Shown: in pieces, positions 4,132 to 28,722 of the stretch
How positions within the stretch are numbered: position 1 is the stretch's first letter
Layout of the letters: each line of letters starts with the position of its first letter
DNA from: Akkermansia muciniphila
Lineage (GTDB): Bacteria > Verrucomicrobiota > Verrucomicrobiia > Limisphaerales > BJHT01
Length of the DNA: 38,520 nt
Direction: 5' to 3'
Assembly (NCBI GenBank): GCA_945861535.1
Contig: CAMAUZ010000077.1
Span: 1-38,520 of the forward strand
Translations under genes and position numbers: made by a program
Notes under the pieces: generated by a model
Told to the model about the DNA's origin: nothing
The model's input: the letters and a program-made list of their open reading frames with translations, nothing else
Databases searched by the model: none

Positions 4132-5214
4132 TCAGCGGGCGACGATATCGGTGATGTTCTTGTCGCAGGGGATTGAAGCGGCTTTCTCGAGGGAGCCATC
4201 CTTGCCGACCTTGTAGGCGGTGATGGTGCCTCCGTTGAACGCGGTCACAAAGAGGAACTCCGCTTTCGGGGAGAGCGTGAAACCCCATGGGATCTTGTCC
4301 GCGGGTGTGCGGCCGATGAGGGAAATGTCGCCATTTTCTGCGATCCGGTAACGGGTGATCCAATCGAAGTCTCGCTGATGTCCGCGGATTCCCGCGAAGA
4401 GGAAGCGACCGTCTGGGGTGATGACGATATCCGAGGAGGAGATGCCTTCCTTGGGTTCGTCGGCTGTCACGGCGTCGCAGACTTTCCGGAACTTCAACCG
4501 GCCATCGGTGTCGCGGTCGTAAACGGAGACGCCGAGGTTTTGCTCGTTGCTGAAGTAAACCACGGGAAGCGTGGGGTGGTAGGCCATGTGCCGCGGCCCC
4601 GTGCCGGCAGGAGGGAGCGCATTCGCGGGTTCCATCGGCTCAAGGCTGCCCGTCTTCGAGTCGAAGCGGTATTGGAGGATGGCGTTGTTCCCCTTCACTT
4701 AGGGGATGTAAATGTTCCGGTTGTCGGGCGGGGGAAGGATGCAGTGGGCCTCCTTCCGCCCTTCGTCGCGTCCTGCGACCCATTTTGTCGGGGCGCCGTT
4801 GTCGTCGAGACCGTAAACATCCACCGCACCGCTGCCATAGTCCGCGCTCAGCAGGAAGCGGCTCGAGCGATCCGTGCTGAGATAGGCGGTGCCATGTCTC
4901 AGTTTGAAGCTCTGTTGGCTGGCGACGCCTCCGGAGGAGTCGAGGGAGACGGTCGCAGCCGGGACGCTGTCGAGCGCGCCGCCGCCTGCCCCGACATAGA
5001 GGGTCGGCTTGGAGGGATGCAGGGTGATGGTGCTGGCCGGGAAGCCAAGGTCCACTTTGGACTCCACGGCGAGCTCGATGCCAGAAGGGGATGGTTTCGC
5101 GGCGATGACCCATAGTTGTTTGCTTCCCGGGCTCGGGGCGTAAACGTGGAAGGGCGGCTCGCCATTCGCGATGGCGGTGAAGGCCAGCAGGGCGGCGAGG
5201 AATGTCAGTTTCAT
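4132..5214 (-). pseudogene. Lactonase-family beta-propeller protein (YbhE/6-phosphogluconolactonase-like, PF10282), split by one in-frame TAA
   Basis: The gene starts at the ATG at 5214 with a signal peptide (MKLTFLAALLAFTAIANG) and runs 171 residues to ...DNRNIYIP. It then meets TAA at 4699-4701, and in the same frame continues with GTG-AAG (VKGNNAILQYRFDSKTG) for 188 residues to 4132. The joined product of about 360 residues is the normal length for this propeller family, and the stop sits where the family usually has a Tyr-Val-Lys-type stretch. One base change (TAC or TAT to TAA) is enough to explain it. The GTG immediately after the stop could permit re-initiation, but the second half would lack an export signal. 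The gene lies 72 bp downstream of the propeller/CBM9 gene. Confidence 0.85.
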
Positions 5215-5233
5215 GTTCTTGGTTCTTGGTTCG
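5215..5233 (-). repeat. Tandem 7-mer (AACCAAG) upstream of the lactonase start
   Basis: The plus strand shows GTTCTTG twice and then GTTC, a 7-bp period, ending directly at the start codon. It is related to 3472-3502. It may be a dispersed intergenic repeat rather than a specific control site. Confidence 0.6.
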
Positions 5234-5285
5234 GCAGAGTGATCGAGGTGCGGATGTGTTTCAAAGGTCGTGGCGGTATCCCACG

Positions 5286-8200
5286 TCATTTTGCGGCGGG
5301 AGCGAACTTGAGGGTGCCCCAGGTGCGGGGCAGGAGTTCGGCGCTGCCGGGACGGTCAACCACGCGGCTTTCACTCAGGCCGGCCCAATGGGCGGCGCGT
5401 TCGCGAGTATCTCCGGCGGCGTTAGCGGTGCCGACGGAAACATCGAAACCGATCGTCTTCCCAGCGACATCCTTCAGACCGAGGCTGGCCAGCGGAACGG
5501 AAACCTCGACCGTGTAGCGGATGTCGCCGGTCTTTTCGTCCCGCTTGGGGTCCACTTTGTAGGCGGCTTGCAGGCCAGGGACGGTGCTGATTTGGTCAAA
5601 GTGAACTTTGGCGGCGGGTGAGGTGATGGTCTGCGAGTTGGTGCCGTCCGTCTTCTTCTGCCAGAAGCCCTGGTGAAAATCGGACTCTGCTGATGCAGCA
5701 TTGCGGACTCGGGCGAGCAGGACACGGACGTCGCCTTCGCGCACATCAGGACGTTGTGGCTGGGACCAGTCGGGGGCAATGGAGAAGTCCACATACGCGC
5801 CGCTGACAAAGGGCGCATACGGTAGTTCGCTGCCGCTATTCGCCGGGCCGCCAGGGTGGCTGACCCTGTAGCCGAGGTAAAGGTTCTCGGCGTCATACAT
5901 CACGCGCACGCTGGCGAACGACTGGCCGTCGAGCAGGACGAGCAGGGGGCGACTTCGGACGCCGTTCTCGACCACTCCGTCCCAGCCTTCACGACCATCA
6001 AGCTCGCCATTCACTTTCACCTTGTAAGTGCCGGGAGTGTTTGCGGCGGGGGTGGGCCAGGCGATGTGGGTGGGCTTCTCGGTGGGTGCGATGCCATCGG
6101 GATCCCAGGGCTTCGCGCGTTCCGCATCCGCTTTCGAGAGAGAGACCTTGGCGGCGGCGATCGGCTTGAAAGTGGGAACGGTGACTTCGTGAACGGCGCA
6201 GGCGGTGTCGTTGACGAGGGTGTAGAGCTTGCCATCGGCCTCGTGGATGCCGTTGCCCATCATTTCGACATAGATGCCATTCTCGTCCATGGTGCTATCG
6301 CCGGCGTCGTGAAACAGGCGGCCGACATAGAAGCCGTCCTTGTGCCAGACCCAGGTCATGCCCATCGCGTCGGAGGCAAAGAGGCAGTCGCGGGCAACGC
6401 CGCTGAGATGCATCGGGTTATACATCTGGCCGGGCTGGGCGCGGCCAGGAGCGCGGCGTCCGACGGCCCACTTGATTGTGCCGTCAGAGTTCCAGGCGGC
6501 GAGTTTCTTCCGCCAGTTGCGACTGGCCCACCAGCCTTCGCCATCAATTCCCGGCAACCGCAAGCCTGTCGGAGCTGCGGGGTCGAGGAGCGCGTAGCGC
6601 GTAGCATCCCTGGTCACAGATCCCAGGACCGAGACGTGGCCGGGTGTCTTGGTGCCGTCGCCGCCGAGGAAGTTGGGGATTTGGTCTGCACCAAGGATTT
6701 CGACATCAGACCAATCGAAGACGGGAGCCCCGCTCGGCAACCACTCGCGCGGGGCGAGGCGAGCCGGCGCACCCGCAATGGAAAGGCTAACCGAGCCATC
6801 TGGTTGAAGCGAGCCGCGGAAGACGCGACTGAAGGGCGCAAGCTTGGGGTTGTTCTCGGTGATCTTGATTTCATCGGGCTGCATCTTACCATCACCGTTG
6901 CGGTCAGCCCAGGTCATCCAGCGATTGGGGCCGGTCTGGTCATAATTGGCGAGCCATTCGCCCTCGGCGTTCTTCTCCTGAAGGTGGTGGTAGCCGATCA
7001 TGGCGACCGGCTTCGGCGGCGCGTCGGGAGTGACAAGATAGATCGCGCCCTCGCCGCTGGTTTGCATCATGTAGAGGCGACCTTTGATGGCGGCCAGACT
7101 GTCGGAATAGCTGAAGACCGGCCAGCGACCCTTCTTTTCGGGATAGGCTTTCTCCAGCGGAAATCCGCCGTGAGTAAAGCTTTGATAGGTGCCTTTGGCG
7201 GGGTCGTAACTGCGCTCGATTGTGAGTTCGTAAAACCATGACGGCTTCCAGGTTCCGCTCACGAAATCGACTTCATAGGCATAGATGCCGGGAGGCGCAT
7301 CATCGAAGGTGTCGAGGACAGAGAGCAGTTCGTGCGGGTTGGCGGGATTGACCACGTCGGAGGTGTGCTGGATTTTCCGGCAGAACCACTGTTTGACGAG
7401 CTTGCCATCGGGCGACCAGAGGCTGTTCCGTTTGAAACCCGTGGCGACGTCATTAACCCAGACGCGCCCGCTGGAATCGACGGCGATGCCGGAGATGTCG
7501 CCGAAGCCATCCGGATTGAAGCGACCTTCCAACGGCGATCCGCCCGCGACGCCGATGCGACGCAGCGGTTTCCCTGCGGGACTGAAGACGTGAATCTGTT
7601 GCGTGCCTGCATCGGCCACGCGGGTTCCGCCAACCAGAGTTCCTTCGCGATAAATGTCGGCCCCGGAATCGCCGATATAGAAGTTCCCCTGCGCATCCAC
7701 GGCGAGCGAGCTTGGTTTCTTTAATCCGCCGCCGTCGATCACCGTGGCCTCAACCTTGCCTTCCGCTGAGAGTCGAAGGAGTTTTGTTCCACTCACGGCG
7801 AGTAAATTTCCATCGCGGAAGGCGAGCCCTCGGGGAGTCGGCATCTCGATTTTCGTCACCTTGCCATCGGCGCGGCTCACGAGGCACAACGCGTTGTCAT
7901 GGGGAACGGACACGTAAACCGTGGTGTCGGAGAGCGCCATGCCTTCGGTGTAGGCGACGGAGCGGTGACGCCAGCGGCCGTGCTGCGTGGTCGTCGGTGT
8001 GATGGGCAGGGCGGCGAGGATCTTGCCGCGGGGCTCGGCGATGTTGTAGGCGGCGACTTCCAGCTTTTCGTTGTAGTAGATGGCGACATAGATCTGCTTG
8101 TCATCCATCGCGGCGGAACTACGCTGATCCCAGGGATAAAAGGAGAAGTAGCGGCGGAGGATGTTGCCCTCCAGGTCAACTCGCTGAAGTCCAGTGATGT

Positions 8201-8657
8201 TGTTGTCCTCGACGCAACCGAAGACCATCATCACGGAGTCGTGGTTGGCGGCGATTCCGGTTCCGGACCCAAGGTTCGCACCCCAGTCCCCTTTCCCATC
8301 AGGCGTTCGGTAAGGCGGGTTCCCGGAGCGCCCGACGGTCATGCGATATTTGAGCGAGGGCGGCGTGTCGAAGAACAAGCCCTTCACGCTGTAATCGCCG
8401 GGCGGACAAACGCGACCGAGGTCATCGGTGCCGTCCCAGGTGACCGAACTCTTGCCCGCCTTCACCGGCAACGCAGACAGCAAGCTGCGCACGAGTTGTC
8501 CCTTCTCGTCCGAAAGCGTGAGACTGAGGAAGCCATCAGCCGGAGCGGAGTAAGCCACCGGGATGGCAACATCCGGCGGCGGAGCCGCGCAGGTCATGGT
8601 GGCCGAAAACCAAAGCGCGGCCAAGGCGGTGGAGAGGAGTGTGAGATTGCGTTTCAT
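5286..8657 (-). CDS. Large secreted beta-propeller (NHL-like) protein with FlgD-like N-terminus and CBM9-like C-terminus
   Basis: From the ATG at 8657 the product is about 1,123 residues, with a signal peptide ending near TMTCAA. The first ~100 residues resemble a FlgD-type Ig fold (SLTLSDEKGQLVRSLL ... VTWDGTDDLGRVCPPGDY). A long NHL-like propeller follows (GLKKPSSLAVDAQGNFYIGD, DGFGDISGIAVDSSGRVWVND). An EF-hand/dockerin-like calcium loop, DRNGDGKMQPDE, lies in the middle. The last ~230 residues resemble a CBM9-like domain (VMYDAENLYLGYRVS ... YTVEVSVPLASLGL). A binding or scaffold role on polysaccharide outside the cell is likely; no catalytic residues can be named. The frame is open 14 codons upstream, but the leader fixes the start. 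The GH16 gene lies 95 bp upstream. Confidence 0.85.
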   Translation of the reverse strand: MKRNLTLLSTALAALWFSATMTCAAPPPDVAIPVAYSAPADGFLSLTLSDEKGQLVRSLLSALPVKAGKSSVTWDGTDDLGRVCPPGDYSVKGLFFDTPPSLKYRMTVGRSGNPPYRTPDGKGDWGANLGSGTGIAANHDSVMMVFGCVEDNNITGLQRVDLEGNILRRYFSFYPWDQRSSAAMDDKQIYVAIYYNEKLEVAAYNIAEPRGKILAALPITPTTTQHGRWRHRSVAYTEGMALSDTTVYVSVPHDNALCLVSRADGKVTKIEMPTPRGLAFRDGNLLAVSGTKLLRLSAEGKVEATVIDGGGLKKPSSLAVDAQGNFYIGDSGADIYREGTLVGGTRVADAGTQQIHVFSPAGKPLRRIGVAGGSPLEGRFNPDGFGDISGIAVDSSGRVWVNDVATGFKRNSLWSPDGKLVKQWFCRKIQHTSDVVNPANPHELLSVLDTFDDAPPGIYAYEVDFVSGTWKPSWFYELTIERSYDPAKGTYQSFTHGGFPLEKAYPEKKGRWPVFSYSDSLAAIKGRLYMMQTSGEGAIYLVTPDAPPKPVAMIGYHHLQEKNAEGEWLANYDQTGPNRWMTWADRNGDGKMQPDEIKITENNPKLAPFSRVFRGSLQPDGSVSLSIAGAPARLAPREWLPSGAPVFDWSDVEILGADQIPNFLGGDGTKTPGHVSVLGSVTRDATRYALLDPAAPTGLRLPGIDGEGWWASRNWRKKLAAWNSDGTIKWAVGRRAPGRAQPGQMYNPMHLSGVARDCLFASDAMGMTWVWHKDGFYVGRLFHDAGDSTMDENGIYVEMMGNGIHEADGKLYTLVNDTACAVHEVTVPTFKPIAAAKVSLSKADAERAKPWDPDGIAPTEKPTHIAWPTPAANTPGTYKVKVNGELDGREGWDGVVENGVRSRPLLVLLDGQSFASVRVMYDAENLYLGYRVSHPGGPANSGSELPYAPFVSGAYVDFSIAPDWSQPQRPDVREGDVRVLLARVRNAASAESDFHQGFWQKKTDGTNSQTITSPAAKVHFDQISTVPGLQAAYKVDPKRDEKTGDIRYTVEVSVPLASLGLKDVAGKTIGFDVSVGTANAAGDTRERAAHWAGLSESRVVDRPGSAELLPRTWGTLKFAPAAK

Positions 8658-8752
8658 GGTCCGACAGTCGATCAGCCAGGATTGGGAGAGACAGCTCATG
8701 GTTTTTCCTTGAGTTGGTAGTTTTGGCTTTTGGGGGCTTATGAGTTGAGGGT

Positions 8753-10915
8753 CTATTTTGCCCGGTAAGTCGCGGTGATGGTGGCGTCTTCAGCGGGCAT
8801 TGTCACGGTGGCCGTGGGGTTGGCAGCGTCGCTGATAGTCGCTTTTCCCTGCACAATCCATTTGTCGAACGCGTAGCCGGCGGGCGGCATATTGGCGGTA
8901 ACCGACGCTTTAGTGCTGCTGACGTAGGGGCCGCTGCCGGTGCCGCCGTTGACGGTCAGCGTGTAAGCGGCTTCGTCGCTCCAGGTATGGACGCGCATCC
9001 AATCAACGCGCAGTTCAAACGGCGCGTCTTTTGGATTCAGAATGCCGCCCCAGGTGCCGCCAAGCGCCTGATTGATAACTATTTTTTTCGTCTCCGGATT
9101 GCGATAGGGATTGACGCCGTGGCGGCCGGTGCCGTTGGCGGTGTCGAGCGGATAATGGTTCATCAGCACGCCGTCGAGATAGAGATCAATTTTGTCGGCG
9201 TCCCAGTCCATCGTCCAGACGTGAAACTCCGTGCCCCAGCGCGGCCCGCCCAGGGCGCTGACTTTCTTGCGCTTGGTGGCGAAAATACCGTTGCCGTCGA
9301 TCACGTTGAAATTCAATTTGCCGGTGTAATATTCCATCATGTCAATCTCGCCTTCTTTGGGCCAGCCGCCCTTGTCGGGACGGCTCCAAATCCACCACGC
9401 CGGCCAACTGCCAGAGCGAAGGTCGATTTTGGCGCGCAGTTCGTAGCGGCCATAAGTCAGCGTCACTTTGTTTTCGGTCGAGACGCTGGCCGAGGTGTAG
9501 GCGTGGCCATTCCAGTTGTCGTGCAGGCCCTGAATGAGCAGGTTGCCGTTATCAATGCGCGAGTTTTCGGGGCGGTCGGAGTAATATTGCGCCTCGCTGT
9601 TGCGCACGTAGCCGATTTCATAGCCCCAGATCGAATCGTCAATTTTTGGCCCCTCGAATTCGTCGCCCCACGAATATTTCCAGCCGCCTTTCAGCCTATT
9701 GGCGGTTGGTTCCAGCTTGCCGATTTTGACGAAGCGTGCGCTGTTCACCGGGCTGGCATCGCGGCCAGCCGCAAAGGCCTGCGCCGTGATGATGCTTGAT
9801 GCGTCCAAACTGAACGGCGCGGTGTAGAGCGGCGAAGTTAGGCCCGGCTCGCTGCCGTCGGTGGTGAAGCGAATCTCGCTGCCGGCGGTCGGCGCGTTCA
9901 TCTGCACCGTGACGGTATCGTGAAACCAAAACGTGCCAGCGGTGAGAGTCGGCGCGATGACGACCGGCGCGGCGGGCAGGCGCTTCACGGCTTCCTGAAG
10001 CTGATATTTGGCGCGCAGGTAGGAAAGGACTTTGTCCTGATCGGCGACCGTAAGTTCGGTGTTGAACAGGATGATTTCGGCGATGTCGCCCTTGAAAACG
10101 TCGCGCGTGCCAGCAGCGGCGATCTGCAATTTGTTGCCGCCATTCATGGCCTGTAGGCTAATCCACGGCGCCGGCACGACCGAAGAAGCGGTGCCGTTGG
10201 CGGCCACCGAAACCGCGAGAGTGCAATCCCATGCGTTGGCGGTTTTGTTCTTTTTGCCTTCAGCGGAGGCGAATGCGAACGCGTAGAACTTGCGCGCTTC
10301 GATGCGCAAATCGCTGGATTGCTCGTTTGGATAAGGCGGATCGAACGCGGTTTGGGGGTCGGCTTTGCTAATTCCGGCGGCGATGCCGGGACGACCGTTC
10401 CAGTTCAGCCCCAGCGCAAGGCCGGCAACGCCGCCGTCGGAGAGCAGCGCTTTGCCCGGCGTATCAATGATATAAGTCGGGCTGTCGCGCAGCGCGGGGT
10501 TTGTGGCGATGCTGTCGTAAGCGGCCACGATAAATGCGGTGAAGCCACCGGCACTCCAATGGTTTCCCTCGTCCAGCAGCGGCGATTCGTTGCCGCTGAA
10601 ACGCAGCACAGGCTTGCCGTTCAGCACGTTGTCCACCACCAGCGGCGCTTTGGCACCGGGAACGATGGTGCGCGCTTTGCCCGAACTATCGTTCAGCGCC
10701 GTCGCCGCGTTGGCGTCGTTTTTGGCGACGTTATCGGCGCGATACCACGCGGCAAGCCCCGCAATGGCCGCCACATCCTCCCTGCCCGGCGGCTTCTCGG
10801 CTTTGGCGCTCAAAGCGAATATGGCCACGAAAAAAGTGATACAGCGAAGGGAAAATTTGCTGCTAGGAGTTTGCTTTCGAAGGTGACGGGCCGGAGTGAT
10901 TTCGAGTTTGGACAT
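8753..10915 (-). CDS. Secreted GH16 endo-glycanase with LamG-like, chitobiase-C-like and Bacon/InlB-like accessory domains
   Basis: The product is 720 residues. A hydrophobic export segment lies at about 24-38 after an unusually long basic N-terminus. Residues ~50-310 resemble a LamG/concanavalin-type domain (AGLAAWYRADNV ... FKGDIAEIILFNTELT). Residues ~320-395 resemble the chitobiase/beta-hexosaminidase C-terminal domain (IRFTTDGSEPGLTSPLY). Residues ~410-645 are glycoside hydrolase family 16, with the catalytic signature E-I-D-M-M-E at 523-528 (nucleophile E523, acid/base E528). Residues ~650-720 resemble an InlB-type repeat domain (YAFDKWIVQGKATI). GH16 enzymes cleave beta-1,3/1,4-glucans or galactans; the exact substrate cannot be read here. 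Part of the N-terminus is encoded by a piece of the 33-bp repeat (10864-10878). Confidence 0.93.
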   Translation of the reverse strand: MSKLEITPARHLRKQTPSSKFSLRCITFFVAIFALSAKAEKPPGREDVAAIAGLAAWYRADNVAKNDANAATALNDSSGKARTIVPGAKAPLVVDNVLNGKPVLRFSGNESPLLDEGNHWSAGGFTAFIVAAYDSIATNPALRDSPTYIIDTPGKALLSDGGVAGLALGLNWNGRPGIAAGISKADPQTAFDPPYPNEQSSDLRIEARKFYAFAFASAEGKKNKTANAWDCTLAVSVAANGTASSVVPAPWISLQAMNGGNKLQIAAAGTRDVFKGDIAEIILFNTELTVADQDKVLSYLRAKYQLQEAVKRLPAAPVVIAPTLTAGTFWFHDTVTVQMNAPTAGSEIRFTTDGSEPGLTSPLYTAPFSLDASSIITAQAFAAGRDASPVNSARFVKIGKLEPTANRLKGGWKYSWGDEFEGPKIDDSIWGYEIGYVRNSEAQYYSDRPENSRIDNGNLLIQGLHDNWNGHAYTSASVSTENKVTLTYGRYELRAKIDLRSGSWPAWWIWSRPDKGGWPKEGEIDMMEYYTGKLNFNVIDGNGIFATKRKKVSALGGPRWGTEFHVWTMDWDADKIDLYLDGVLMNHYPLDTANGTGRHGVNPYRNPETKKIVINQALGGTWGGILNPKDAPFELRVDWMRVHTWSDEAAYTLTVNGGTGSGPYVSSTKASVTANMPPAGYAFDKWIVQGKATISDAANPTATVTMPAEDATITATYRAK

Positions 10916-10972
10916 AGTGCTTGGTTTTCTTATGTTTTTGTTTGTGGATCGCCGTCTATATGACGAAAAGGA

Positions 10973-12580
10973 TTACTTTTTCGGCAGGTAGATGGCTCGG
11001 CCCCAGGTCGCACCGTGTTGGAAAAACATTGGCGGCGACATACCGGGCTTGGAACGGGTTTGCGGGTTCGTCACCTCGACAAGTTGCCCGCGGCAGAGAC
11101 GGCCATCGGCATCGCTCCAATGCACCATCCACAGCGCCGCCATCACGTCGCCTGCGCGGGGCGGGTCGTTTTCGCAATGCAGCAGCCGCCAGGGAATCGC
11201 ATACTCCAGCGTGTAGCCACGGCCATCGGCATCCTTGCGAAACGCGCCGCGCCAGCCGGGCGGATTGGCGCTGTCGAGAAAGCTGAATCCGTATTGCAGC
11301 CGCATGCGCGCCTCGTTGGACTGCGCGTCATGGGACATGATGATGCTCACGACGCGATCGCTGAGTGAGTCCGGCAGGGGTCGCTCCCTCGGGTTTTTGG
11401 AGTTGGCATTCGCAAACGTGCCCTTCAGCGGCCAGCCCAGCTTGCGGTCCGTGGAGACGCGCACGATCACGCTGCCGCCCGCGAAGTCCATGATGTCCCG
11501 CGCCACGTTGCGCATCGGCTCAGGGTCGCCGACATGCGCACCGATGTAGAGGTTCTCAGCATCATACGACATCATCCCTTCGACGAAATAAGTGGCGCTG
11601 TAAGGCGGCAGGCACGCGCTGCGGAAGGCATTCGCGCGATTCCACTCCGAGAGATCCCCGTCAATGGTCACCGGGGTGATCGGCGCTGCGATGCGAACGG
11701 CGTCCACCGTGCTTCGGCTGTAGAGCGCACCACCCGGCCCGTCGCTGGACGAGCGGGGCGGGAAGCGGCGAACGAACCGATCCTCGCGGGACTTCTCAGA
11801 TGACAGCGTGCCATCCGCCTTGCACACCACCGACTCCCCGACGGTCAGCTCCTTCCGCCCCGGCACCGAGTGGGATTCCGCGCTCACTTTGCCCTCGAAG
11901 ACCTGCACCCGCGACTCGCCATTCAGCGACACACTCACGCCAAACTCCGTGCCCAGATCCGTCACCCGCATCTGCGGCAGGTCCATGACAAAGCCCGATT
12001 TCCCCTTCAGCATCCGCACCACCACATTCCCGGCCATCAAGCGCCCGTGCAGGGCATCAACGAGTTCAAACCGCGCCGGAGCCTCCACCATCAAGGTCGT
12101 GCCCGACGTCGTCTCGATCTCCACCAACCCGTTCTGCAAGTCCCAGACACCCGAGAGCAGCAGCGCACCCACCGCCACTTCGCGCCCATCCGCCCACTGC
12201 CCATGCAAGCTCGCCTTCACCACCGCAAGCGCACTCGCCGACGACACCGCCGAAGGACGATTCGGCAACCACATCTGCGCAATCCCCAGCAGCACCACCA
12301 CCGCCGCGGCGAGCGGCAGCGCCCAGCGCACGGCCCTAGAAATCGTCCCGCCAACGCGCAAGGAAACCGGCGGGAGCGCCGCAGGGGCGAACGCCTCGGC
12401 TCCGTCTTGTGTGGCCCGCGCCGTGACCGCCGAGCAGATTTCCTGGTCGAAGAGCACGGCGGCGGTGAACTCGCGCAGGTGGGCTGGGTCCGCCTTGAGC
12501 CACTGCTGCAACTCGGCGCGCTCGGCCTCCGTGAGCGTGTCGTCCAGATAACCGGTGAAGAGCGCCTCGTGCGAGTTCAT
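10973..12580 (-). CDS. FecR-type anti-sigma/sensor protein with CBM9-like C-terminal domain
   Basis: The product is 535 residues. A cytoplasmic N-terminus (1-80) of anti-sigma type (LFTGYLDDTLTEAERAELQQWL) is followed by one membrane segment (about 85-105). A FecR domain (about 120-250) contains GVWDLQNGLVEIETTSGTTL, MRVTDLGTEFGVSV and VQVFEGKV. A ~240-residue extracytoplasmic region then resembles CBM9 (TIDGDLSEWNRANAF, MSYDAENLYIGAHVGD). The start overlaps the sigma gene's stop by 4 bases (ATGA), so the two are translationally coupled. The inferred role is to hold the ECF sigma factor and release it on a cell-surface signal; the CBM9-like end suggests that signal may be a carbohydrate. The same YDAENLY phrase occurs in the neighbouring propeller protein. 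Confidence 0.88.
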   Translation of the reverse strand: MNSHEALFTGYLDDTLTEAERAELQQWLKADPAHLREFTAAVLFDQEICSAVTARATQDGAEAFAPAALPPVSLRVGGTISRAVRWALPLAAAVVVLLGIAQMWLPNRPSAVSSASALAVVKASLHGQWADGREVAVGALLLSGVWDLQNGLVEIETTSGTTLMVEAPARFELVDALHGRLMAGNVVVRMLKGKSGFVMDLPQMRVTDLGTEFGVSVSLNGESRVQVFEGKVSAESHSVPGRKELTVGESVVCKADGTLSSEKSREDRFVRRFPPRSSSDGPGGALYSRSTVDAVRIAAPITPVTIDGDLSEWNRANAFRSACLPPYSATYFVEGMMSYDAENLYIGAHVGDPEPMRNVARDIMDFAGGSVIVRVSTDRKLGWPLKGTFANANSKNPRERPLPDSLSDRVVSIIMSHDAQSNEARMRLQYGFSFLDSANPPGWRGAFRKDADGRGYTLEYAIPWRLLHCENDPPRAGDVMAALWMVHWSDADGRLCRGQLVEVTNPQTRSKPGMSPPMFFQHGATWGRAIYLPKK

Positions 12581-13107
12581 GGGAGGCTCTGTTCCAGCCG
12601 GACTTGGCGTTCCACACAGGCGCGCAATTGCTCGCGGATGCGCTGGAGATTCACGCGCACGGCCGGCGCGTTCCGGCCAAGCTGGCGGGCGATGGCCTCG
12701 GCGGATTGCCCCTCGAAATAGCGGAGCCGCACCAACTCACGGGCGTGTCGGGCCAGTTCGTCCAGACAGCCTTGCAACGCCGCGCCGCGCGCTGAGGAGG
12801 CGGGGGCCAGTTCGACCCAAGTATCGGTGAACCGCGCGAGCAAGTCGTCATCGAAGGCCACCCGACTGCGCGCGGCATCGCGCTGCCAGCCGAGCACCTG
12901 AAAGCGCGCGATGCCCAGCGCCCACGCGAGAAAGGGTCGCGCGCCGTCGTATTCCGGGAACCGGCGGAAGAGCACCAGCGCCGTCTCCTGCAACACATCC
13001 TGCGCCGCGCCGTGGTCCCGCACGAGCGCATGGACGTAGTTCGCCACCGCCGGCTGGGTGGAGGTCCACAAGCGCATGAAGCGTTCCTGGTCCTGTGCGT
13101 TGAGCAT
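12577..13107 (-). CDS. ECF-family RNA polymerase sigma factor
   Basis: About 176 residues from the ATG at 13107. Region 2 includes DVLQETALVLFRRFPEYDG and RPFLAWALGIARFQVLGW. Region 4 includes LVRLRYFEGQSAEAIARQLG followed by the recognition helix (APAVRVNLQRIREQLRACV). It belongs to the sigma-70 family often seen beside FecR proteins in Verrucomicrobiota and Planctomycetota. An alternative TTG start at 13146 adds 13 residues; I prefer the ATG because the family's homology begins there. It overlaps the FecR gene by 4 bp and probably controls the GH16 and propeller genes downstream, which is inference from position only. Confidence 0.93.
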   Translation of the reverse strand: MLNAQDQERFMRLWTSTQPAVANYVHALVRDHGAAQDVLQETALVLFRRFPEYDGARPFLAWALGIARFQVLGWQRDAARSRVAFDDDLLARFTDTWVELAPASSARGAALQGCLDELARHARELVRLRYFEGQSAEAIARQLGRNAPAVRVNLQRIREQLRACVERQVRLEQSLP

Positions 13108-13273
13108 GTCGGCGGGTATTTCCGCGACGCTGGCGGAGTGTAACAAGCAATCTTGAATGCTTGATGGCGTGTCTTACTCCCGGGCTCGTCCACTTGCGGT
13201 CGCGACGGGCGGCGGCCGCGAGCGAAGTCAACAAAGTGAGTGGGGGGGAAACCGTTTCTTCATGGTGTGCAAT

Positions 13274-15545: not shown

Positions 15546-16979
15546 TCAGGCAATGAGTTCTTTCACCACGCGGCTCGGCTCCACGCCCGTGAGCCGGAAA
15601 TCCAAACCTTGGTGCCGGTAGGTGAGCCGCTCGTGGTCCATGCCGAGCAAGTGCAAGGCCGTCGCGTGCAGGTCGTGAACGTGGACGGGGTTTTCCGCGA
15701 CACTGAAGCTGAAGTCATCCGTCGCGCCATAGGTGAGACCGGCCTTCACGCCGCCGCCGGCCATCCACATCGTGAAGCAACGCGGGTGGTGGTCGCGCCC
15801 GGCTTCGATGCTGTCCCACTTGCCTTGTCCAACGGGACTGCGCCCAAACTCGCCGCCCCAGATAACGAGCGTTTGGTCGAGCAAGCCGCGTTGTTTGAGG
15901 TCACGGATAAGGCCGGCGGTCGGCTGGTCGGTGTCGCGACAGCGCGCAACGCACCAACTCGGCAGACGGCTATGATGGTCCCAGTCGGGATGGAAGAGCT
16001 GGATGAAACGCACGCCGCGCTCGACGAGGCGACGGGCCTGAATGCAGTTCGCCGCGTAGCTGCCGGCACGACGCGAGTCGGGACCGTAAAGCTCGAAGGT
16101 AGATTCCGCTTCACCACTCATGTCGGTGAGTTCCGGCACGCTGGTCTGCATCCGGTAAGCCATTTCATATTGGCGGATGCGCGTGGCGATTTCGGGGTCG
16201 CCGGTTTCCGCAAGGCGCATCTGGTTCAACTCGCCGAGGCCGTCGAGCATCCCGCGCCGCAGCTCGCGCGGCAGGCCGTCCGGGTCGCGGAGGTAAAGAA
16301 CCGGGTCGCGGGAGTTGCGGAGCTTGACGCCTTGGAACCGCGACGGCAGGAAGCCGCTGCCCCAGTAATGGTCGTAGAGCGGCTGGTCGCTCGGCCGCTG
16401 CATCTTCGAGATGAGCACGAGGTATTCGGGCAGGTTTTTGTTCTCACTGCCGAGGCCGTAGCTGGCCCACGCGCCCATGCTGGGTCGGCCGGGAATTTGA
16501 TGACCGGTCAGCATCTTGGTCATCGCCGGCGCGTGGTTGATTTGGTCGCTGTGCATGGACTTGATGAAGCACAGGTCATCCGCCACGCCGCGCAAGTGCG
16601 GTAGCCACTCGCCAATGGTCGCGCCGCTGCGCCCGCATCGCTCGAACTTCGTCCGCCCCGGCATCAGCAGTTGCTTCTGGCTCGAAGTCATCGTGGTGAC
16701 GCGCTGGCCCTGCCGCACCGAGTCGGGAATCTCGATGCCCGCCCACTTCTCCAACTGCGGCTTGTAGTCATACAGCTCCAACTGCGACGGCCCGCCGGAC
16801 TGCGTGAGGAAGATGACGTGCCTGGCCTTTGCGGCGAAGTGCGGCAGGCCGGCGGGCACCGCAGTCGATGGTGCGGCAGAAACGCGCTGGAGCAATTGCG
16901 ACAATGCCATCGCGCCAAGGCTCACGCCCGCACCGCGCCCGAGGAAGTATCGGCGGGTGATGTTCAGCGGCTCATTCAT
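15546..16979 (-). CDS. DUF1501 exported protein (sulfatase-fold, Tat-type leader)
   Basis: A 477-residue protein with a twin-arginine leader (NITRRYFLGRGAGVSLGAMALSQLL) and the full DUF1501 pattern: HVIFLTQSGGPSQLELYDYK near the start, LCFIKSMHSDQINHAPAMTKMLTG, SYAANCIQARRLVERGVRF, and LVIWGGEFGRSPVGQGKWDS. DUF1501 proteins share the alkaline phosphatase/sulfatase fold, lack a formylglycine site, and are nearly always encoded next to DUF1549/DUF1553 cytochromes. Here the start overlaps the end of that gene by 8 bp (16972-16979), so they form a coupled pair. The exact reaction is not established. The start is set by the Tat leader; the open frame upstream is a shadow of the cytochrome gene. 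Confidence 0.92.
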   Translation of the reverse strand: MNEPLNITRRYFLGRGAGVSLGAMALSQLLQRVSAAPSTAVPAGLPHFAAKARHVIFLTQSGGPSQLELYDYKPQLEKWAGIEIPDSVRQGQRVTTMTSSQKQLLMPGRTKFERCGRSGATIGEWLPHLRGVADDLCFIKSMHSDQINHAPAMTKMLTGHQIPGRPSMGAWASYGLGSENKNLPEYLVLISKMQRPSDQPLYDHYWGSGFLPSRFQGVKLRNSRDPVLYLRDPDGLPRELRRGMLDGLGELNQMRLAETGDPEIATRIRQYEMAYRMQTSVPELTDMSGEAESTFELYGPDSRRAGSYAANCIQARRLVERGVRFIQLFHPDWDHHSRLPSWCVARCRDTDQPTAGLIRDLKQRGLLDQTLVIWGGEFGRSPVGQGKWDSIEAGRDHHPRCFTMWMAGGGVKAGLTYGATDDFSFSVAENPVHVHDLHATALHLLGMDHERLTYRHQGLDFRLTGVEPSRVVKELIA

Positions 16980-19900
16980 GGGTGATGGCTTCATCGAGGT
17001 TGAGGGCGAGGCTGGCAACGACGGTGTAGGCGGCCAGTTCGGCGGCGTTGAGTTTGGAATCAATCCTGAACTGCGCGCCAGCCAGCAGCTTGGTCGCTTC
17101 GTCGGGCTTGGTGCGATACAACGCAAGCGCCCGGTCGAACTCACGCTGTAGCACGGCGGCTTCCTTTGCGCTGGGCCGACGGGCGACGACGCGGCGGTAG
17201 ATTTCAGCGAGGCGGTCTTCGGGCTTGATGGCGGCTCGGAGAATTCCAGCAGCCAAGGCCCGCGAGGCTTCGAGGAAGGTCTCGTCGTTGAGCAAGGTGA
17301 GCGCCTGGAGCGGCGTGTTCGTGCGCGGCGTGCGGACTTCGCAGACACGGCGCTGGGCCGAATCGAAGAGAAAGGTCGGCGCGATGCTGCGACGCCAAAA
17401 GGCGTAGAGCGACCGGCGATACTGCGCCGCACCCTCGCTCGGCTCGTATTTGAAGCGGCCCATGAAGATTTCCTCCCACACGCCTTCGGGCTGATGCGGG
17501 CGCACGGGCGGGCCGCCGAGCGCGGCGTTCATCAAGCCGCTGCTGCGGAGCGCGCCGTCCCTGAGCATCCACGCCGGCAGGCGGAAGCGCGGCGCGCGAG
17601 CAAGCAGGCGGTTCTCCGGGTCGCGGGCGAGCAGGGCTGGAGAAGCGACGGAGCTTTGGCGATACGTGGCGCTCGTCGCCATGACTTGGAGGATGTGCTT
17701 CACGTCCCAGCCGCTCTCCATGAAATCGACCGCCAGCCAGTCGAGCAACTCCGGGTGAGTCGGCCGCTCGCCTTGCAGGCCGAAGTCCTCGGGCGTTCGC
17801 ACCAAGCCATTGCCAAACAGCATCGCCCACAGATTGTTCACGACGACGCGGGCGGTGAGCGGATTGTCGCGAGCAGTCAGCCAGTTCGCGAGGCCCAGGC
17901 GGGTTTTGTCGGCAGCAGCCGGCCACGGCGCGACGGCAGCAGGCACGCCGCGCTCGACCTTTTCGCCATGCTTATCCCACACGCCGCGCAGCAGGATGTG
18001 GGTGGTGCGCGGCTCCTTGCGTTCGGCGAGGACCATCACGTTGAGCTTTTGCGCGGCGGCTTTCACTTCGCCCAACTGCCGGTTCGCACGGTCCAGTGCG
18101 GCTTTTTCCACTTGGTAAGGCGCGTGGTCGGCGAGGAACTGGTTGAACAACTTTGCTCGCAGTTTGGTGTCCAGCGCGGTGAGGTCGGTCAACTTCGCGG
18201 CGGCGAGTTGTTCCAGCGGAACTGGCCCGACACTGCGAATCGCGTCGCCCGCCTGGTCCGTCACCGACACACGGAAGCGGCCGATGTTCGCGTCACCCAG
18301 CGTCGAGCGATGGCGCAACTCAAAAATGAGTTCCTCGTCCGCGTCGAGCAGGAGCGGTTCGGCCAGCGCGAAGACCGCGGTGCGCGGCTGCTTCGGGTCG
18401 AGGCCCTTGGTCGTCCAGCCGTTGCGCGGGTCGTCGTCGAGCACACCCTTGATGTCGCCGTATTCACGGGCGCCCTTCCGGTCAGCGGCGGCGTCAGCGA
18501 CCGCACCGGTCACGAGCACATCGCGAATCTGCGAACTGCCCCGCCGCCGCACCTGCACCTTGATGTCGGTGAGGATGAACTCGCCGGACTTCCCGCGCGA
18601 CAGGCCCCCGCCGGTGTGCGACGCGTGCGGGAGCACTTCCAGCTTCAGCCCGGTCACGCGCGTTAGCTTCACCGGACCGGCGACGCGGTAGTCCTCGTGA
18701 TTCGGATTCGGCCCGCTGGCTTGCACGATGGCGTCCGCCTCCTGCACAAGGCGTGTTCCCTCGATGCTCTCCAGCTCGCTTGCACGCAGTGGATGCCACG
18801 CTGAAAAGCCCGGTGCCACAGCCTTCGCTTGGGCCGCGAGCCAGTCGGCGAATGGAGTCTCCGCCGCCTTGCGCGCCTCGGCTTCGCGCGGCTTGCGCTC
18901 GTCCACCAATGCCTGAGCCTCGGTCACGCTGCGGCTCGCGAGCGGAGATTGGTAACTGAGGTAAGGCTTCGCGCCGCCGCCGGCCTTGCCGTCCTCGTCA
19001 ATCGAGTTGAAGAACGCCGCGAGCCGGTAGAAGTCCGCGTGTGGGAGCGGGTCGTATTTGTGCGCGTGGCACTGGACACAGTTGAGCGTGAGGCCGAGCC
19101 AGACCGTGCCGACGGTGTTCACGCGGTCAATCACGTAGTCCACGCGCGACTCCTCGGGGTCGCGACCTCCCTCGCCGTTGGTCATGTGGTTGCGATGGAA
19201 GCACGTCGCGAGCCGCTGCTCGGGCGTCGCGTTCGGCAGGAGGTCGCCGGCGAACTGCTCGCGCGTAAACTGGTCGAACTTCATGTTCGCGTTGAAGGCG
19301 GCGACGACCCAGTCGCGCCACGGCCAGTTCGAGCGCGTGGCGTCGGCCTGATAGCCATCCGTGTCCGCGTAGCGCGCGGCGTCGAGCCACCACATCGCCA
19401 TGCGTTCGCCGAAATGGTCGGACTTCAGAAGCCGGGCGACGACTTTCTCAAGCGCATCAGGCGAACGGTCGGCCAGAAAGGCGTCCAAGTCCGCCGTTGT
19501 CGGCGGCAGGCCGGTGAGGTCATAGGAGACGCGGCGAATCAACGTGTGCTTCGCGGCCTCGGGCGAGGGCTTTAACTTTTCCTGCGCGAGCCGGGCGAGA
19601 ATGAAGCGGTCAATCGGGTGCGTGGCTCCAGCGACTGCCGGCGGTGGAGCCTTGACCGGCGGCACGAAGGCCCAGTGCGCCTCATACTTCGCCCCGGTGG
19701 TAATCCACTGCTTCAGCACGTCCTTCTGCACGGAGGTGAGTTGTTTGTGCGAATCGGCTGGCGGCATCAGTTGGTCGGCGTCCTTGGTCTCAATGCGCTT
19801 CACCAGCGCGCTGGCAGCAGGCTTGCCGGGGACGATGGCGGTTTCGCCGGACTTCGCAGGCTTCATCGCGCTGTCGCGGAGGTCGAGGCGCAGACCGCCC

Positions 19901-20064
19901 TTCGCCTGCTTCGCATCCGGACCGTGGCAGGCAAAACAGTTGTCCGAGAGTATGGGCAGGACGTCGCGATTGAAGCTGGGCGCGTCGGCGGCGCGCGCGG
20001 CGAGGCTGGCGGAGACGCACAAGCCGACCAGCGCGGTGCGACGGATGAAAAGGCACGCGGTCAT
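16972..20064 (-). CDS. PSCyt1/DUF1549/DUF1553 planctomycete-type cytochrome c protein
   Basis: The product is 1,030 residues with a signal peptide (1-26). A PSCyt1 haem domain carries C-F-A-C-H at 43-47 and a distal LMPP methionine near residue 100. DUF1549 (about 145-350) includes HPIDRFILARLAQEKLKPSP, WWLDAARYADTDGY and a second haem-type motif, C-V-Q-C-H, in LNCVQCHAHKYDPL. The middle has a beta-rich insert of unclear type. DUF1553 (about 690-990) includes ARVVVNNLWAMLFGNGLV, DWLAVDFMESGWDVKHIL and TPLQALTLLNDETFLEASR. The length is normal. It is thought to be an exported electron-transfer or oxidoreductase partner of the DUF1501 protein. Confidence 0.93.
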   Translation of the reverse strand: MTACLFIRRTALVGLCVSASLAARAADAPSFNRDVLPILSDNCFACHGPDAKQAKGGLRLDLRDSAMKPAKSGETAIVPGKPAASALVKRIETKDADQLMPPADSHKQLTSVQKDVLKQWITTGAKYEAHWAFVPPVKAPPPAVAGATHPIDRFILARLAQEKLKPSPEAAKHTLIRRVSYDLTGLPPTTADLDAFLADRSPDALEKVVARLLKSDHFGERMAMWWLDAARYADTDGYQADATRSNWPWRDWVVAAFNANMKFDQFTREQFAGDLLPNATPEQRLATCFHRNHMTNGEGGRDPEESRVDYVIDRVNTVGTVWLGLTLNCVQCHAHKYDPLPHADFYRLAAFFNSIDEDGKAGGGAKPYLSYQSPLASRSVTEAQALVDERKPREAEARKAAETPFADWLAAQAKAVAPGFSAWHPLRASELESIEGTRLVQEADAIVQASGPNPNHEDYRVAGPVKLTRVTGLKLEVLPHASHTGGGLSRGKSGEFILTDIKVQVRRRGSSQIRDVLVTGAVADAAADRKGAREYGDIKGVLDDDPRNGWTTKGLDPKQPRTAVFALAEPLLLDADEELIFELRHRSTLGDANIGRFRVSVTDQAGDAIRSVGPVPLEQLAAAKLTDLTALDTKLRAKLFNQFLADHAPYQVEKAALDRANRQLGEVKAAAQKLNVMVLAERKEPRTTHILLRGVWDKHGEKVERGVPAAVAPWPAAADKTRLGLANWLTARDNPLTARVVVNNLWAMLFGNGLVRTPEDFGLQGERPTHPELLDWLAVDFMESGWDVKHILQVMATSATYRQSSVASPALLARDPENRLLARAPRFRLPAWMLRDGALRSSGLMNAALGGPPVRPHQPEGVWEEIFMGRFKYEPSEGAAQYRRSLYAFWRRSIAPTFLFDSAQRRVCEVRTPRTNTPLQALTLLNDETFLEASRALAAGILRAAIKPEDRLAEIYRRVVARRPSAKEAAVLQREFDRALALYRTKPDEATKLLAGAQFRIDSKLNAAELAAYTVVASLALNLDEAITHE

Positions 20065-23824: not shown

Positions 23825-25141
23825 TCAAATCAACTCGAAGTCCTTCACGCCTGTGCCCGTGCTGCTGCCAAAGCGGTCGGCGTTGACGCCGAGGCGGTGG
23901 GCAATCTGGACAAACAGATTGCAGAAGCGGGCGTTGTCGTTGCCCGGGCCACCCGCAATGACGTGCTGGCCGTGCTTGAAACCACCGCCGGCGACGAGCA
24001 CGGGGATGTCGCGCCAACTGTGCGCGCTGGCATTGCCGAGATTGGAGCCCGCCACGACGATCGTCTGATCGAGCAAGGAGCGATTCCCTTCCTTCACGCC
24101 CTTGAGCAGGCCGAGGAACCGGCTGATCTCGCGGAACTCCGCCAATTCAATGAGTTTCAGTTCCGAGATTTTCTGGGCCTCCTGGCCGTGGTGCGACAGG
24201 TTGTGCCAGTCCTGATCCACGCCTTCGATTTTCGGCACGGCGTTCATGCCGCCGGCTTTGTAGGTGATGAAGCGCGTCGAGTCGGTCTGCAACGCGAGCG
24301 CCATCAGGTCGTGCATCAGGCGCGTGCGCGCGATGATGTCCGTGCGGTCCTGGATGTCGGCCGGCCACTTGGCGTCCACGGCGGGTTTGGGGCGCTGCAC
24401 CCATTTCTCGGAGGACTGCAGGCGCGTTTCGAGCTCGCGAACGCTGGTGAGGTATTGGTCGAGCTTCTCCTGGTCGCGCGCGCCGAGGTCGCGGTGAAGT
24501 TTCTTCGCCTCGGCGTTGACGGTGTCGAGGATGCTGCGGCCGCGTTTCAATTCGCGCATCTGGTTCTGCAGTTCGGCGGGCGTGCCCTTGCCGAAGAGCA
24601 GGCCGAAAATTTTCGACGGCGAACTTTCCGCGGGCAGATTCACCCCGTTGGAGGTCCACGACATGGAATCGTTCCCACCAACGTTCAGAATCAGCGATGG
24701 GTATCGGGTGTCGGGCGACAGTTTCTCGATGAGGAACTGGTCGAGCGAGATGCTGTTCTTGAAGCCGGGCAGGCCGGGATGCTTCGCCGAGGTGAGCCAG
24801 GTAAGCTCGGAGGTGTGGCCGTTGGCACCGTTCTGCTCCACGTGCGAAAGGCCGGAGATGATTGAGAAATCGGAGCGATGCTCCTTGAGCGGTTCGAGGT
24901 AGGGAGTCAGTTCGAAATCGCGCCCGGCTTGCTTGGGGAAAAGATGCGGCCCGTGGAAGCCGAGGCCGTAGTTCATCGCGATGAACCGGCGCGGGGGTGT
25001 GGTCGCAGCGGCGGCCTGCGCCCGGGTGGCGAAGGCGGGCAGCATGGCGTCGAGCCACGGCAGCGCGAGCAGCGTGCCGGTGCCACGCAGAAAGGCGCGA
25101 CGGCTGAGGGCGGGCTTGGCGGAGAGATGGGGCGCTTTCAT
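23825..25141 (-). CDS. DUF1552 exported protein (Tat-type leader)
   Basis: The product is 438 residues. A twin-arginine leader (ALSRRAFLRGTGTLLALPWL) is followed by the standard DUF1552 pattern: RRFIAMNYGLGFHGPHLFPK, DFSIISGLSHVEQNGANGH, SISLDQFLIEKL, a helical middle (ELKRGRSILDTVNAEAKKLH), and the C-terminal IPVLVAGGGFKHGQHVIAGG. The function is not established. These genes normally sit directly downstream of a DUF1592-type cytochrome gene. Here that partner (26202-28637) is present but separated by a repeat-bounded cassette. The start lies 3 bp from the cassette's left end. Confidence 0.92.
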   Translation of the reverse strand: MKAPHLSAKPALSRRAFLRGTGTLLALPWLDAMLPAFATRAQAAAATTPPRRFIAMNYGLGFHGPHLFPKQAGRDFELTPYLEPLKEHRSDFSIISGLSHVEQNGANGHTSELTWLTSAKHPGLPGFKNSISLDQFLIEKLSPDTRYPSLILNVGGNDSMSWTSNGVNLPAESSPSKIFGLLFGKGTPAELQNQMRELKRGRSILDTVNAEAKKLHRDLGARDQEKLDQYLTSVRELETRLQSSEKWVQRPKPAVDAKWPADIQDRTDIIARTRLMHDLMALALQTDSTRFITYKAGGMNAVPKIEGVDQDWHNLSHHGQEAQKISELKLIELAEFREISRFLGLLKGVKEGNRSLLDQTIVVAGSNLGNASAHSWRDIPVLVAGGGFKHGQHVIAGGPGNDNARFCNLFVQIAHRLGVNADRFGSSTGTGVKDFELI

Positions 25142-25144
25142 AGA

Positions 25145-25292
25145 GGCAGAATGATGGGGGCAAAATGATTTTGAGGGAGAAGGGAAATGGTTTTCGGGCG
25201 ATGCAGTGAGTCGACGCGCTGCGATCTGCGCGGTGCATGCAACGGAATTGCCTGAAAAAATGCCTTCATAATTTTGCCGCCATCATTTTGCC
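25145..25292. repeat. Inverted repeat pair A (left end of the GxxExxY cassette)
   Basis: The left arm, 25145-25170, has GGCA at 25145 and 25159. The right arm, 25267-25292, is its near reverse complement, with TGCC at 25275 and 25289. A 96-bp spacer separates them. The right arm contains the TGA stop (25283-25285) of the GxxExxY gene. The pair could form a stem of about 25 bp. Confidence 0.8.
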
Positions 25293-26089
25293 TTCCGCAG
25301 CGTGGTGAAAGTGATGTCGGCGTGGTGGAGGTTGATCCAGGCGATGGCTTCGAGTCGTGTGTGATTCAGGAATCGTTGGAGATGGCCTTCCATCTGTTGC
25401 GGCGAACGCGTCACGGCGGTGACGCTGAAGGCCACGTCGTCGGTCAGGAGATTGACCGGTTGCACGCCGATGACGGATTCGCCAGAGAACACTTCCACCC
25501 GGCGGCCGACTTTCTCCTGCCCGTTGATCAGAAACGCCAGCGCCTCGCGATACAGGGGCACCTCCAGATAGGCGCCCCAGTCGTGGAGCAGTTCGAGCAT
25601 CAACTTCTGGAGCGACTGCATCTCCGGGTGGGCACGCTCCCATCGATCATCGTGAACGCGAATGCGGCGGCGTTCCTTGGTGTTCAGGCGCGTGGAAACG
25701 AACTCGTGCTCGACCTTGGGCGGACGGAAGTTGAGCAGCGTGCCGTGTTCAAGGTCGCAAGCGAACAGGTAGCCGAGCGTCTGAGCGGTGTTGGCGCCGA
25801 CCAGTTGCTCGGTCGCCTTGGCTTCGACCGGCAGGCCGGAACGGATCATCAGGTCGGCAAAATAATCCTTCCGGAAACCCGCGTGGGTGAAAGTCACCTG
25901 CATCTCGCGCACCACCGGCAAACCCGCCTGCTCGCAGCGTCGCGCCAGTTCGCACTTATAAATCTCCTCATCCAGCAGCCGGCCATACTCGTTGTGAATC
26001 TGGAACGCGAAGCCGGTCACGCGATGGTCAAGCTCGTAGAACTCCTGTTCCGTCGGCTTGATGATCGGGATGGCAGTGCGGATGGGCAT
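25283..26089 (-). CDS. GxxExxY family protein (PD-(D/E)XK nuclease-like)
   Basis: The product is 268 residues. The N-terminal ~125 residues match the GxxExxY family (PF13366-like): HRVTGFAFQIHNEYGRLLDEE IYKCEL carries the name-giving region in a variant form (G-R-L-L-D-E-E-x-Y), then MQVTFTHAGFRKDYFADLMI and GLPVEAKATEQLVGANTAQT (D and E-x-K of a PD-(D/E)XK-like core), then LGYLFACDLEHGTLLNFR. About 110 further residues (SLQKLMLELLHDWGAYLEVP, HLQRFLNHTRLEAIAWINLHH) are longer than the common single-domain form and unassigned. No signal peptide, so cytoplasmic. The role is unknown. It is enclosed by the repeat pairs A and B. Confidence 0.85.
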   Translation of the reverse strand: MPIRTAIPIIKPTEQEFYELDHRVTGFAFQIHNEYGRLLDEEIYKCELARRCEQAGLPVVREMQVTFTHAGFRKDYFADLMIRSGLPVEAKATEQLVGANTAQTLGYLFACDLEHGTLLNFRPPKVEHEFVSTRLNTKERRRIRVHDDRWERAHPEMQSLQKLMLELLHDWGAYLEVPLYREALAFLINGQEKVGRRVEVFSGESVIGVQPVNLLTDDVAFSVTAVTRSPQQMEGHLQRFLNHTRLEAIAWINLHHADITFTTLRKAK

Positions 26090-26098
26090 GGGGCTAAT

Positions 26099-26190
26099 GG
26101 CAGAATAATGGGGGCAAAATCAGGTGGAGAAAAGTCTGCGCCGGACTGCGTTCTTCCGCTGCTTCATCATTCTGCCGCCATTATTATGCC
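26099..26190. repeat. Inverted repeat pair B (right end of the GxxExxY cassette)
   Basis: The left arm, 26099-26124, has GGCA at 26099 and 26113. The right arm, 26165-26190, has TGCC at 26173 and 26187. The spacer is 40 bp. It lies between the GxxExxY start (26089) and the cytochrome stop (26202). Confidence 0.8.
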
Positions 26191-26201
26191 TCTCTCCGGT
26201 T

Positions 26202-28637: not shown

Positions 28638-28722
28638 ACCATCGGGGGGTGGTGCGGTGTGCCGTGATTCTCGGCTGCTGGCAAGCAGGGCAAGGTTGAA
28701 TGTCTGGTTGAACGAGGGCGAT

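Follow-up and report, generated by a model that had tools for sequence, protein, structure and literature searches.

A FecR-type anti-sigma protein with a CBM9-fold sensor half of different lineage in a Verrucomicrobiota genome

Here, we describe an operon in a 38,520-nucleotide stretch of DNA (the window) from Akkermansia muciniphila (GTDB lineage Bacteria; Verrucomicrobiota; Verrucomicrobiia; Limisphaerales; BJHT01), in which an extracytoplasmic function (ECF) sigma factor, a FecR-type anti-sigma protein, a secreted GH16 enzyme and a secreted propeller protein are encoded one after another. It takes up the whole of contig C77 (CAMAUZ010000077.1), part of a 7.9-Mb draft genome of 169 contigs (GCA_945861535.1). 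By comparison with related loci, the FecR protein is a natural chimera: the sigma factor and FecR residues 1 to 82 belong to one lineage, and everything from the transmembrane (TM) helix to the stop codon belongs to another. We judge it an even call that the operon is a TonB-independent glycan-sensing ECF/FecR system whose CBM9 sensor is traded as a TM-helix-to-stop cassette, by which inputs are rewired and the sigma-binding part is left untouched. An earlier note, made from the letters of the window, had placed the four genes correctly, with the GH16 gene between the FecR and propeller genes, and had proposed that the FecR protein senses polysaccharide directly, an interpretation that finds partial support here; the chimeric origin of the FecR gene was missed there.

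The chimeric FecR gene

A search of genome contigs gave five relatives of the FecR protein; in four of these the match began only at residue 82–90. DNA identity to locus L036 (L numbers denote loci used in the comparisons; L097 and L039 have their genes in common with each other) rises from about 30–40% to about 90% at the first TM-helix codons and drops to about 40% at the stop codon. Upstream of this junction, the identity of window residues 1–83 to partner proteins is 39–52% for clade A sigma factors (34% for L131) and 15–29% for clade B. Downstream, identity to clade B L036 is 82% in the FecR domain and in CBM9; against the clade A CBM9 sensors, it is 29–31% in the FecR domain and 42–48% in CBM9.

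The trees disagree in the same way. The sigma tree places the window in clade A (nearest L126–L128, 78%), across a branch (100/99) of length 2.22, and the sensor tree places it inside clade B, with L036, L037 and L038. Approximately unbiased (AU) tests rejected both trees in which the window sensor was forced together with clade A sensors (p 1.8e-5; log-likelihood difference, 287) and those in which its sigma factor was forced together with clade B sigma factors (p 8e-4; difference, 307); the groups were chosen after the similarity had been seen, and the margins are very large. Donor-type sensors pair with an unrelated sigma factor (clade B) that has another promoter. Because similarity stops on the other side too, at the FecR stop codon, we tentatively prefer transfer of the sensor into a clade A operon over the movement of a clade A sigma factor and anti-sigma domain to a place before a clade B sensor.

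The partners of clade A sigma factors vary, and include CBM9 sensors (L074–L077), a LamG protein (L131) and other FecR sensors (L132–L134); those of L126–L130 are short and have no FecR match. Other sigma factors are joined to sensors near those of clade A at L072/L073 and L100. From this variety and these mismatches, input and output have probably been exchanged more than once, and the window is the freshest case seen. Such natural swapping suggests that the sensors are exchangeable cassettes.

The CBM9-fold sensor and the propeller proteins

The anti-sigma protein has one TM helix, adjoins an ECF sigma gene and matches DUF4880 (28.8 bits) and FecR (25.2 bits), both above cut-off; its FecR and CBM9 domains would lie in the periplasm. 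The earlier note had held that the FecR and propeller proteins both end in CBM9-like domains, and both assignments are borne out. In the propeller protein, profiles found FlgD_ig, NHL and CBM9_1 (23.7 bits versus a cut-off of 23.4). The window FecR C-terminus by itself scores 18.7 bits against CBM9_1 (PF06452), below that cut-off, and 11 of the 12 sensor-family members match the profile. A profile of the full FecR alignment had no match in the PDB and was replaced by a C-terminal profile that included distant members, for which the top matches were 1i82 (TmXyn10A CBM9-2, Thermotoga; 1.2e-6) and 7nwn (Caldicellulosiruptor CBM9; 1e-3). The C-terminus was too poor in an AlphaFold model of the full protein (mean predicted local distance difference test [pLDDT], 52.9), so the domain was modelled alone (pLDDT, 64.7; predicted template-modelling score, 0.70). 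The best two Foldseek matches of this model were 7nwn (5.3e-8) and 1i82 (9.2e-8), and VIA gave Z scores of 14.6 to 1i82 and 14.4 to 7nwn; haem-binding fold relatives ranked lower, at Z 11 and less (2ivf, 11.3; cytochrome domains, 7–8). Profile and model thus both identify the FecR C-terminus as a real CBM9 fold; structure prediction was a check that the earlier note had proposed. In CBM9 modules, the end of a glycan chain is bound between a pair of aromatic residues, Trp71/Trp175 in TmCBM9-2 and Tyr89/Trp191 in CBM9.3 (PMC8280721), and sugar binding by the window sensor is likely by family. The sensor was not found in the viral contigs searched, and the literature searched contained no description of FecR with CBM9 or LamG, or of FecR in Verrucomicrobiota.

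The phrase YDAENLY, which the earlier note took as a link between the two proteins, is present in both (FecR residue 339; propeller residue 935), and a direct BLASTP comparison aligned 22 residues (E = 0.007). It corresponds to a conserved strand of CBM9 domains generally (WDENYLY in 1i82) and was dropped as evidence of a special link, since this family signature alone proves common family only. The relatives link the two proteins more strongly than the window itself does. Outside FecR, the phylum yielded 15 large proteins with sensor-type CBM9, all of them CBM9–FlgD_Ig–propeller fusions whose propeller core is that of the window protein. The same FecR architecture, for which a search had been proposed, was found at 17 CBM9-FecR loci, and a propeller-core gene lies in the fetched flanks of 10 of these, compared with none of the 19 FecR or sigma loci taken as controls (flanks of 264 kb versus 207 kb; Fisher p = 7.7e-5, a guide only, because the loci are interrelated). 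At several loci (L037, L071 and L098) a sensor-type CBM9 is found on the adjacent propeller protein as well; at others, the window included, this CBM9 is on FecR only. One candidate, L101, was removed from the FecR loci, being a secreted CBM9-propeller protein. Another cluster of FecR and propeller genes, L076, encodes a stand-alone 326-residue sensor-type CBM9 protein (10479–11459, plus strand), together with four propeller-matching open reading frames (ORFs). By these comparisons, the shared-domain link between FecR and propeller proteins is real; and since the two are fused in some genomes and adjacent in others, we argue that sensor and propeller protein would handle the same ligand.

Operon, promoter and proposed signalling

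The sigma factor belongs to the Rhodopirellula/Verrucomicrobium family TIGR02989 (163.5 bits versus a curated cut-off of 124.55), with Sigma70_r2 and r4_2 present. Its ORF opens at 13146, but all sister genes start at the ATG of 'MLNAQDQERF', at 13107. Comparison by eye of the 160 nucleotides (nt) upstream of the sister sigma genes gave a single strong block, TGTTACRYT-N13-GGMAATAC, at a distance of about 8 nt from the start codon. In the window this element reads TGTTACACT-N13-GGAAATAC and has one exact match (none in shuffled sequence), which is also the only one in the 7.9-Mb genome. It is present in 12 of the 14 genomes with this sigma factor, nearly always at the sigma gene itself. Its longer form with up to two mismatches had two extra genomic sites versus one in a reversed control; with these sites at control level, a broader regulon was rejected. 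Because the element occurs once in the genome, the predicted regulon of the window sigma factor is its own operon alone. Clade B sigma genes carry a different block near the start codon, GGCCACTTT(T)CCG...TGACCAAT (read by eye at L036–L039, L071 and L099), which was looked for in the window and not found.

All genes of the neighbourhood lie on the minus strand, in the order sulfatase, 166-nt gap, sigma, FecR, GH16, FlgD-Ig/propeller/CBM9 and lactonase-family gene (Table 1). The sigma stop codon overlaps the FecR start (ATGA), an arrangement that nearly all relatives share. The GH16 gene is 57 nt from the FecR gene and 53 nt from the propeller gene, and the propeller and lactonase-family genes overlap. 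We infer that the sigma, FecR, GH16 and propeller genes are co-transcribed, and the lactonase-family gene is probably the last gene of the operon. The GH16 protein matches PF00722 (45 bits) and has an EIDMME active site within EGEIDMMEYY (an ExDxxE-type catalytic motif); both it and the propeller protein have hydrophobic, signal-like N-termini. In the lactonase-family gene, a single in-frame stop splits one reading frame into two halves, which may mean a pseudogene, readthrough or a sequencing error.

Table 1. Features of the operon, its promoter-like element and the FecR protein (window coordinates)
Feature	Position	Strand	Basis or remark
Sulfatase	14833-13274	minus	
Promoter-like element TGTTACACT-N13-GGAAATAC	13116..13145	minus	8 nt upstream of sigma ATG
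ECF sigma factor, Rhodopirellula/Verrucomicrobium family (TIGR02989), clade A	12577..13107	minus	Profile, tree, start from sister genes
FecR-type anti-sigma protein, 535 aa	10973..12580	minus	
FecR residues 1-82, cytoplasmic anti-sigma-type helical domain (DUF4880-like), clade A	12335..12580	minus	Helices 3-12, 18-30 and 32-58 modelled
FecR residues 83-105, single TM helix	12266..12334	minus	Hydropathy; swap junction at start (about 12331)
FecR residues 118-265, FecR domain, beta-rich	11786..12229	minus	PF04773; model pLDDT about 80
FecR residues 300-535, CBM9-fold sensor domain	10976..11683	minus	Family profile and structure model
Swapped cassette, codon 84 to stop codon	10973..12331	minus	82% protein and 87% DNA identity to clade B sensor L036
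Secreted GH16 enzyme, Fn3-associated/CHB_HEX_C_1 domain, C-terminal InlB-type repeat	8753..10915	minus	
Secreted FlgD-Ig, propeller and C-terminal CBM9 protein, 1137 aa	5286..8699	minus	
Lactonase-family propeller gene	4132..5289	minus	Overlaps propeller-gene stop; in-frame TAA at 4699-4701

The computed gene order, domain folds, lineage incongruence, conserved and unique promoter and propeller link, read by analogy with known systems, lead us to favor somewhat a self-contained, autoregulated cell-surface signalling operon sensed through CBM9, with an acquired sensor half. The cytoplasmic N-terminus of the FecR protein would hold the sigma factor, and the protein would cross the inner membrane once, with its FecR and CBM9 domains facing the periplasm. 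There CBM9 would meet its ligand, probably an oligosaccharide chain end freed by basal secreted enzyme, and contact would make the anti-sigma protein let the sigma factor go, by conformational change or proteolysis. The freed sigma factor would then fire its sole recognised promoter, which stands before the sigma gene, and sigma factor, FecR, GH16 and propeller proteins would rise together. With a sensor half from a different sigma/anti-sigma system joined at the TM helix, an old output would answer to a new input. In E. coli, sigma activity also requires FecR, via the FecR N-terminus (PMC7406223), so regulation in the window system may have either sign. PMC12203970 deals with a proteolytic step in signalling by RsgI.

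The window's genome holds a second operon of this kind (L027; G000:C100, 3956–10722), in which a TIGR02989-like sigma gene and a FecR gene precede a gene for a large GH26/CBM_4_9 protein; the order sigma, FecR, glycosidase is thus not unique to the window. At L026 (G000:C26, 4879–9256) one protein combines a FecR domain with a WD40 propeller, and its gene adjoins a TIGR02989 sigma gene and a planctomycete-type cytochrome (PSCyt3/PSD) gene. Elsewhere in the window, on the minus strand, a PSCyt1/PSD1 planctomycete-type cytochrome gene and a pair of DUF1552 and PSD3/PSD4 genes lie at 16972–20064 and 23825–28853, and an accessory-looking RhuM-family gene and a Schlafen/AlbA_2 plus recG-like HATPase_c_4 gene lie at 29610–30662 and 31405–32802.

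Alternative readings, known systems and implications

We regard direct sensing via CBM9 as the best reading; several points weigh against it or against the acquired sensor half. At the Trp71 clamp position the window sensor has Phe (clade A sensors have Trp); the second clamp aromatic (Trp175) is not placeable, the C-terminal part of the model having a pLDDT under 50; haem-binding proteins occur within the related DOMON fold; two close sensor relatives, L036 and L038, precede genes with planctomycete-type cytochrome/DUF1501-like openings (read by eye), not glycoside hydrolases; and only one such chimera was seen, in a draft genome. From the neighbours of L036 and L038, the sensor is not tied to one enzyme set. 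An unlikely alternative draws on the same Phe, cytochrome-like neighbours and haem-binding relatives: the CBM9-like domain would bind a non-sugar (haem, a peptide or the propeller protein) and sense redox state or the cell's own secreted product. CBM9 proper is, however, clearly the best match by profile and fold, a GH16 gene lies downstream, and the fusion partners elsewhere are secreted propeller proteins. Alternatively, the sensor could serve a classical FecA/FecR scheme, with the signalling domain of a TonB receptor encoded elsewhere reading the FecR C-terminus and CBM9 only modifying the contact. E. coli FecR C-termini do contact receptors, and the genome has nine Plug-domain matches; all nine are on other contigs, no TonB-dependent receptor adjoins fecR, and no receptor is listed among the profiled window genes and the neighbours of CBM9-FecR genes. 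With 235 residues of CBM9 after the FecR domain, and secreted hydrolase and propeller genes as neighbours, we consider this scheme decidedly improbable, and the earlier proposal of a route different from TonB-linked FecR is supported.

The same proposal had the sensor switch the downstream enzymes. Sigma control of these is predicted as likely, because the conserved promoter of the lineage stands only at the operon head; the simple pairing of sensor and enzyme is weakened by L036 and L038. It is quite unlikely that the sigma factor lacks control of the GH16 and propeller genes and that both merely follow, with their own regulation: the 57- and 53-nt gaps could hold a promoter and the downstream genes vary between relatives, but no sigma-70-like site is found on the coding strand of the gaps, and with the element nowhere else in the genome, the ECF factor would without its operon regulate only itself. 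Scarcely credible is an assembly error that joined sensor reads of a relative into the contig. The draft has 169 contigs and the junction was not found in a second genome among those searched; yet such an error would take a pair of misjoins separated by 1.36 kb, the first in frame at a domain border and the second at a stop codon. In addition, the segment differs by 13% in DNA from its nearest known donor, and the sensor is present only once in the genome. The segment also fits its flanks in G+C (0.65 versus 0.68 and 0.60), and other mismatches of sigma factor and sensor exist (L072/L073 and L100).

The proposed direct-sensing operon resembles SigI/RsgI of Clostridium (Acetivibrio) thermocellum, in which polysaccharide acts on autoregulated sigma factors by way of anti-sigma proteins that bear carbohydrate-binding modules (CBMs) (PMC4711584). 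As is predicted for the window, an autoregulated sigma factor is there co-transcribed with a single-pass anti-sigma protein carrying an extracellular CBM, and the regulon comprises secreted glycan enzymes; SigI/RsgI pairs run in parallel with different sensors (CBM3, PA14 and GH10) (PMC4711584). The window differs in its TIGR02989 sigma factor, DUF4880/FecR protein, CBM9-fold sensor, one-operon predicted regulon, recombination junction between output and input, and place in Verrucomicrobiota. The RsgI_N profile had no match in the window FecR protein, and the sigma factor is not of the SigI family; by analogy, the system would work like SigI/RsgI and is not a member. With FecI/FecR/FecA of E. 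coli, and FecR beside polysaccharide utilization loci in Bacteroidota, it shares an ECF sigma factor followed by a single-pass FecR-domain partner, but has no TonB receptor at the locus and an extra CBM9 on the periplasmic side. In related genomes, FecR-LamG proteins next to sigma factors of the TIGR02989 type (L029 and L131) share the sigma family, FecR core and a lectin-like C-terminus, with LamG in place of CBM9 and other downstream genes. Bacterial xylanase CBM9 modules (1i82 and 7nwn) share fold and sequence profile; in the window the module is a predicted sensor on a membrane anti-sigma protein, with one clamp aromatic replaced.

To our knowledge, the regulation of large enzyme sets in Verrucomicrobiota has been little worked out, and this operon offers a minimal case, with one sigma factor, one sensor, one promoter and one set of secreted proteins. 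The CBM9 subfamily common to the sensor and to secreted propeller proteins makes the ligand question testable. Designers of ECF switches need to know at which sites an anti-sigma protein can be cut and rejoined, and the natural chimera marks such a site; it also predicts that exchange of the periplasmic half would not require the sigma contact to evolve anew.

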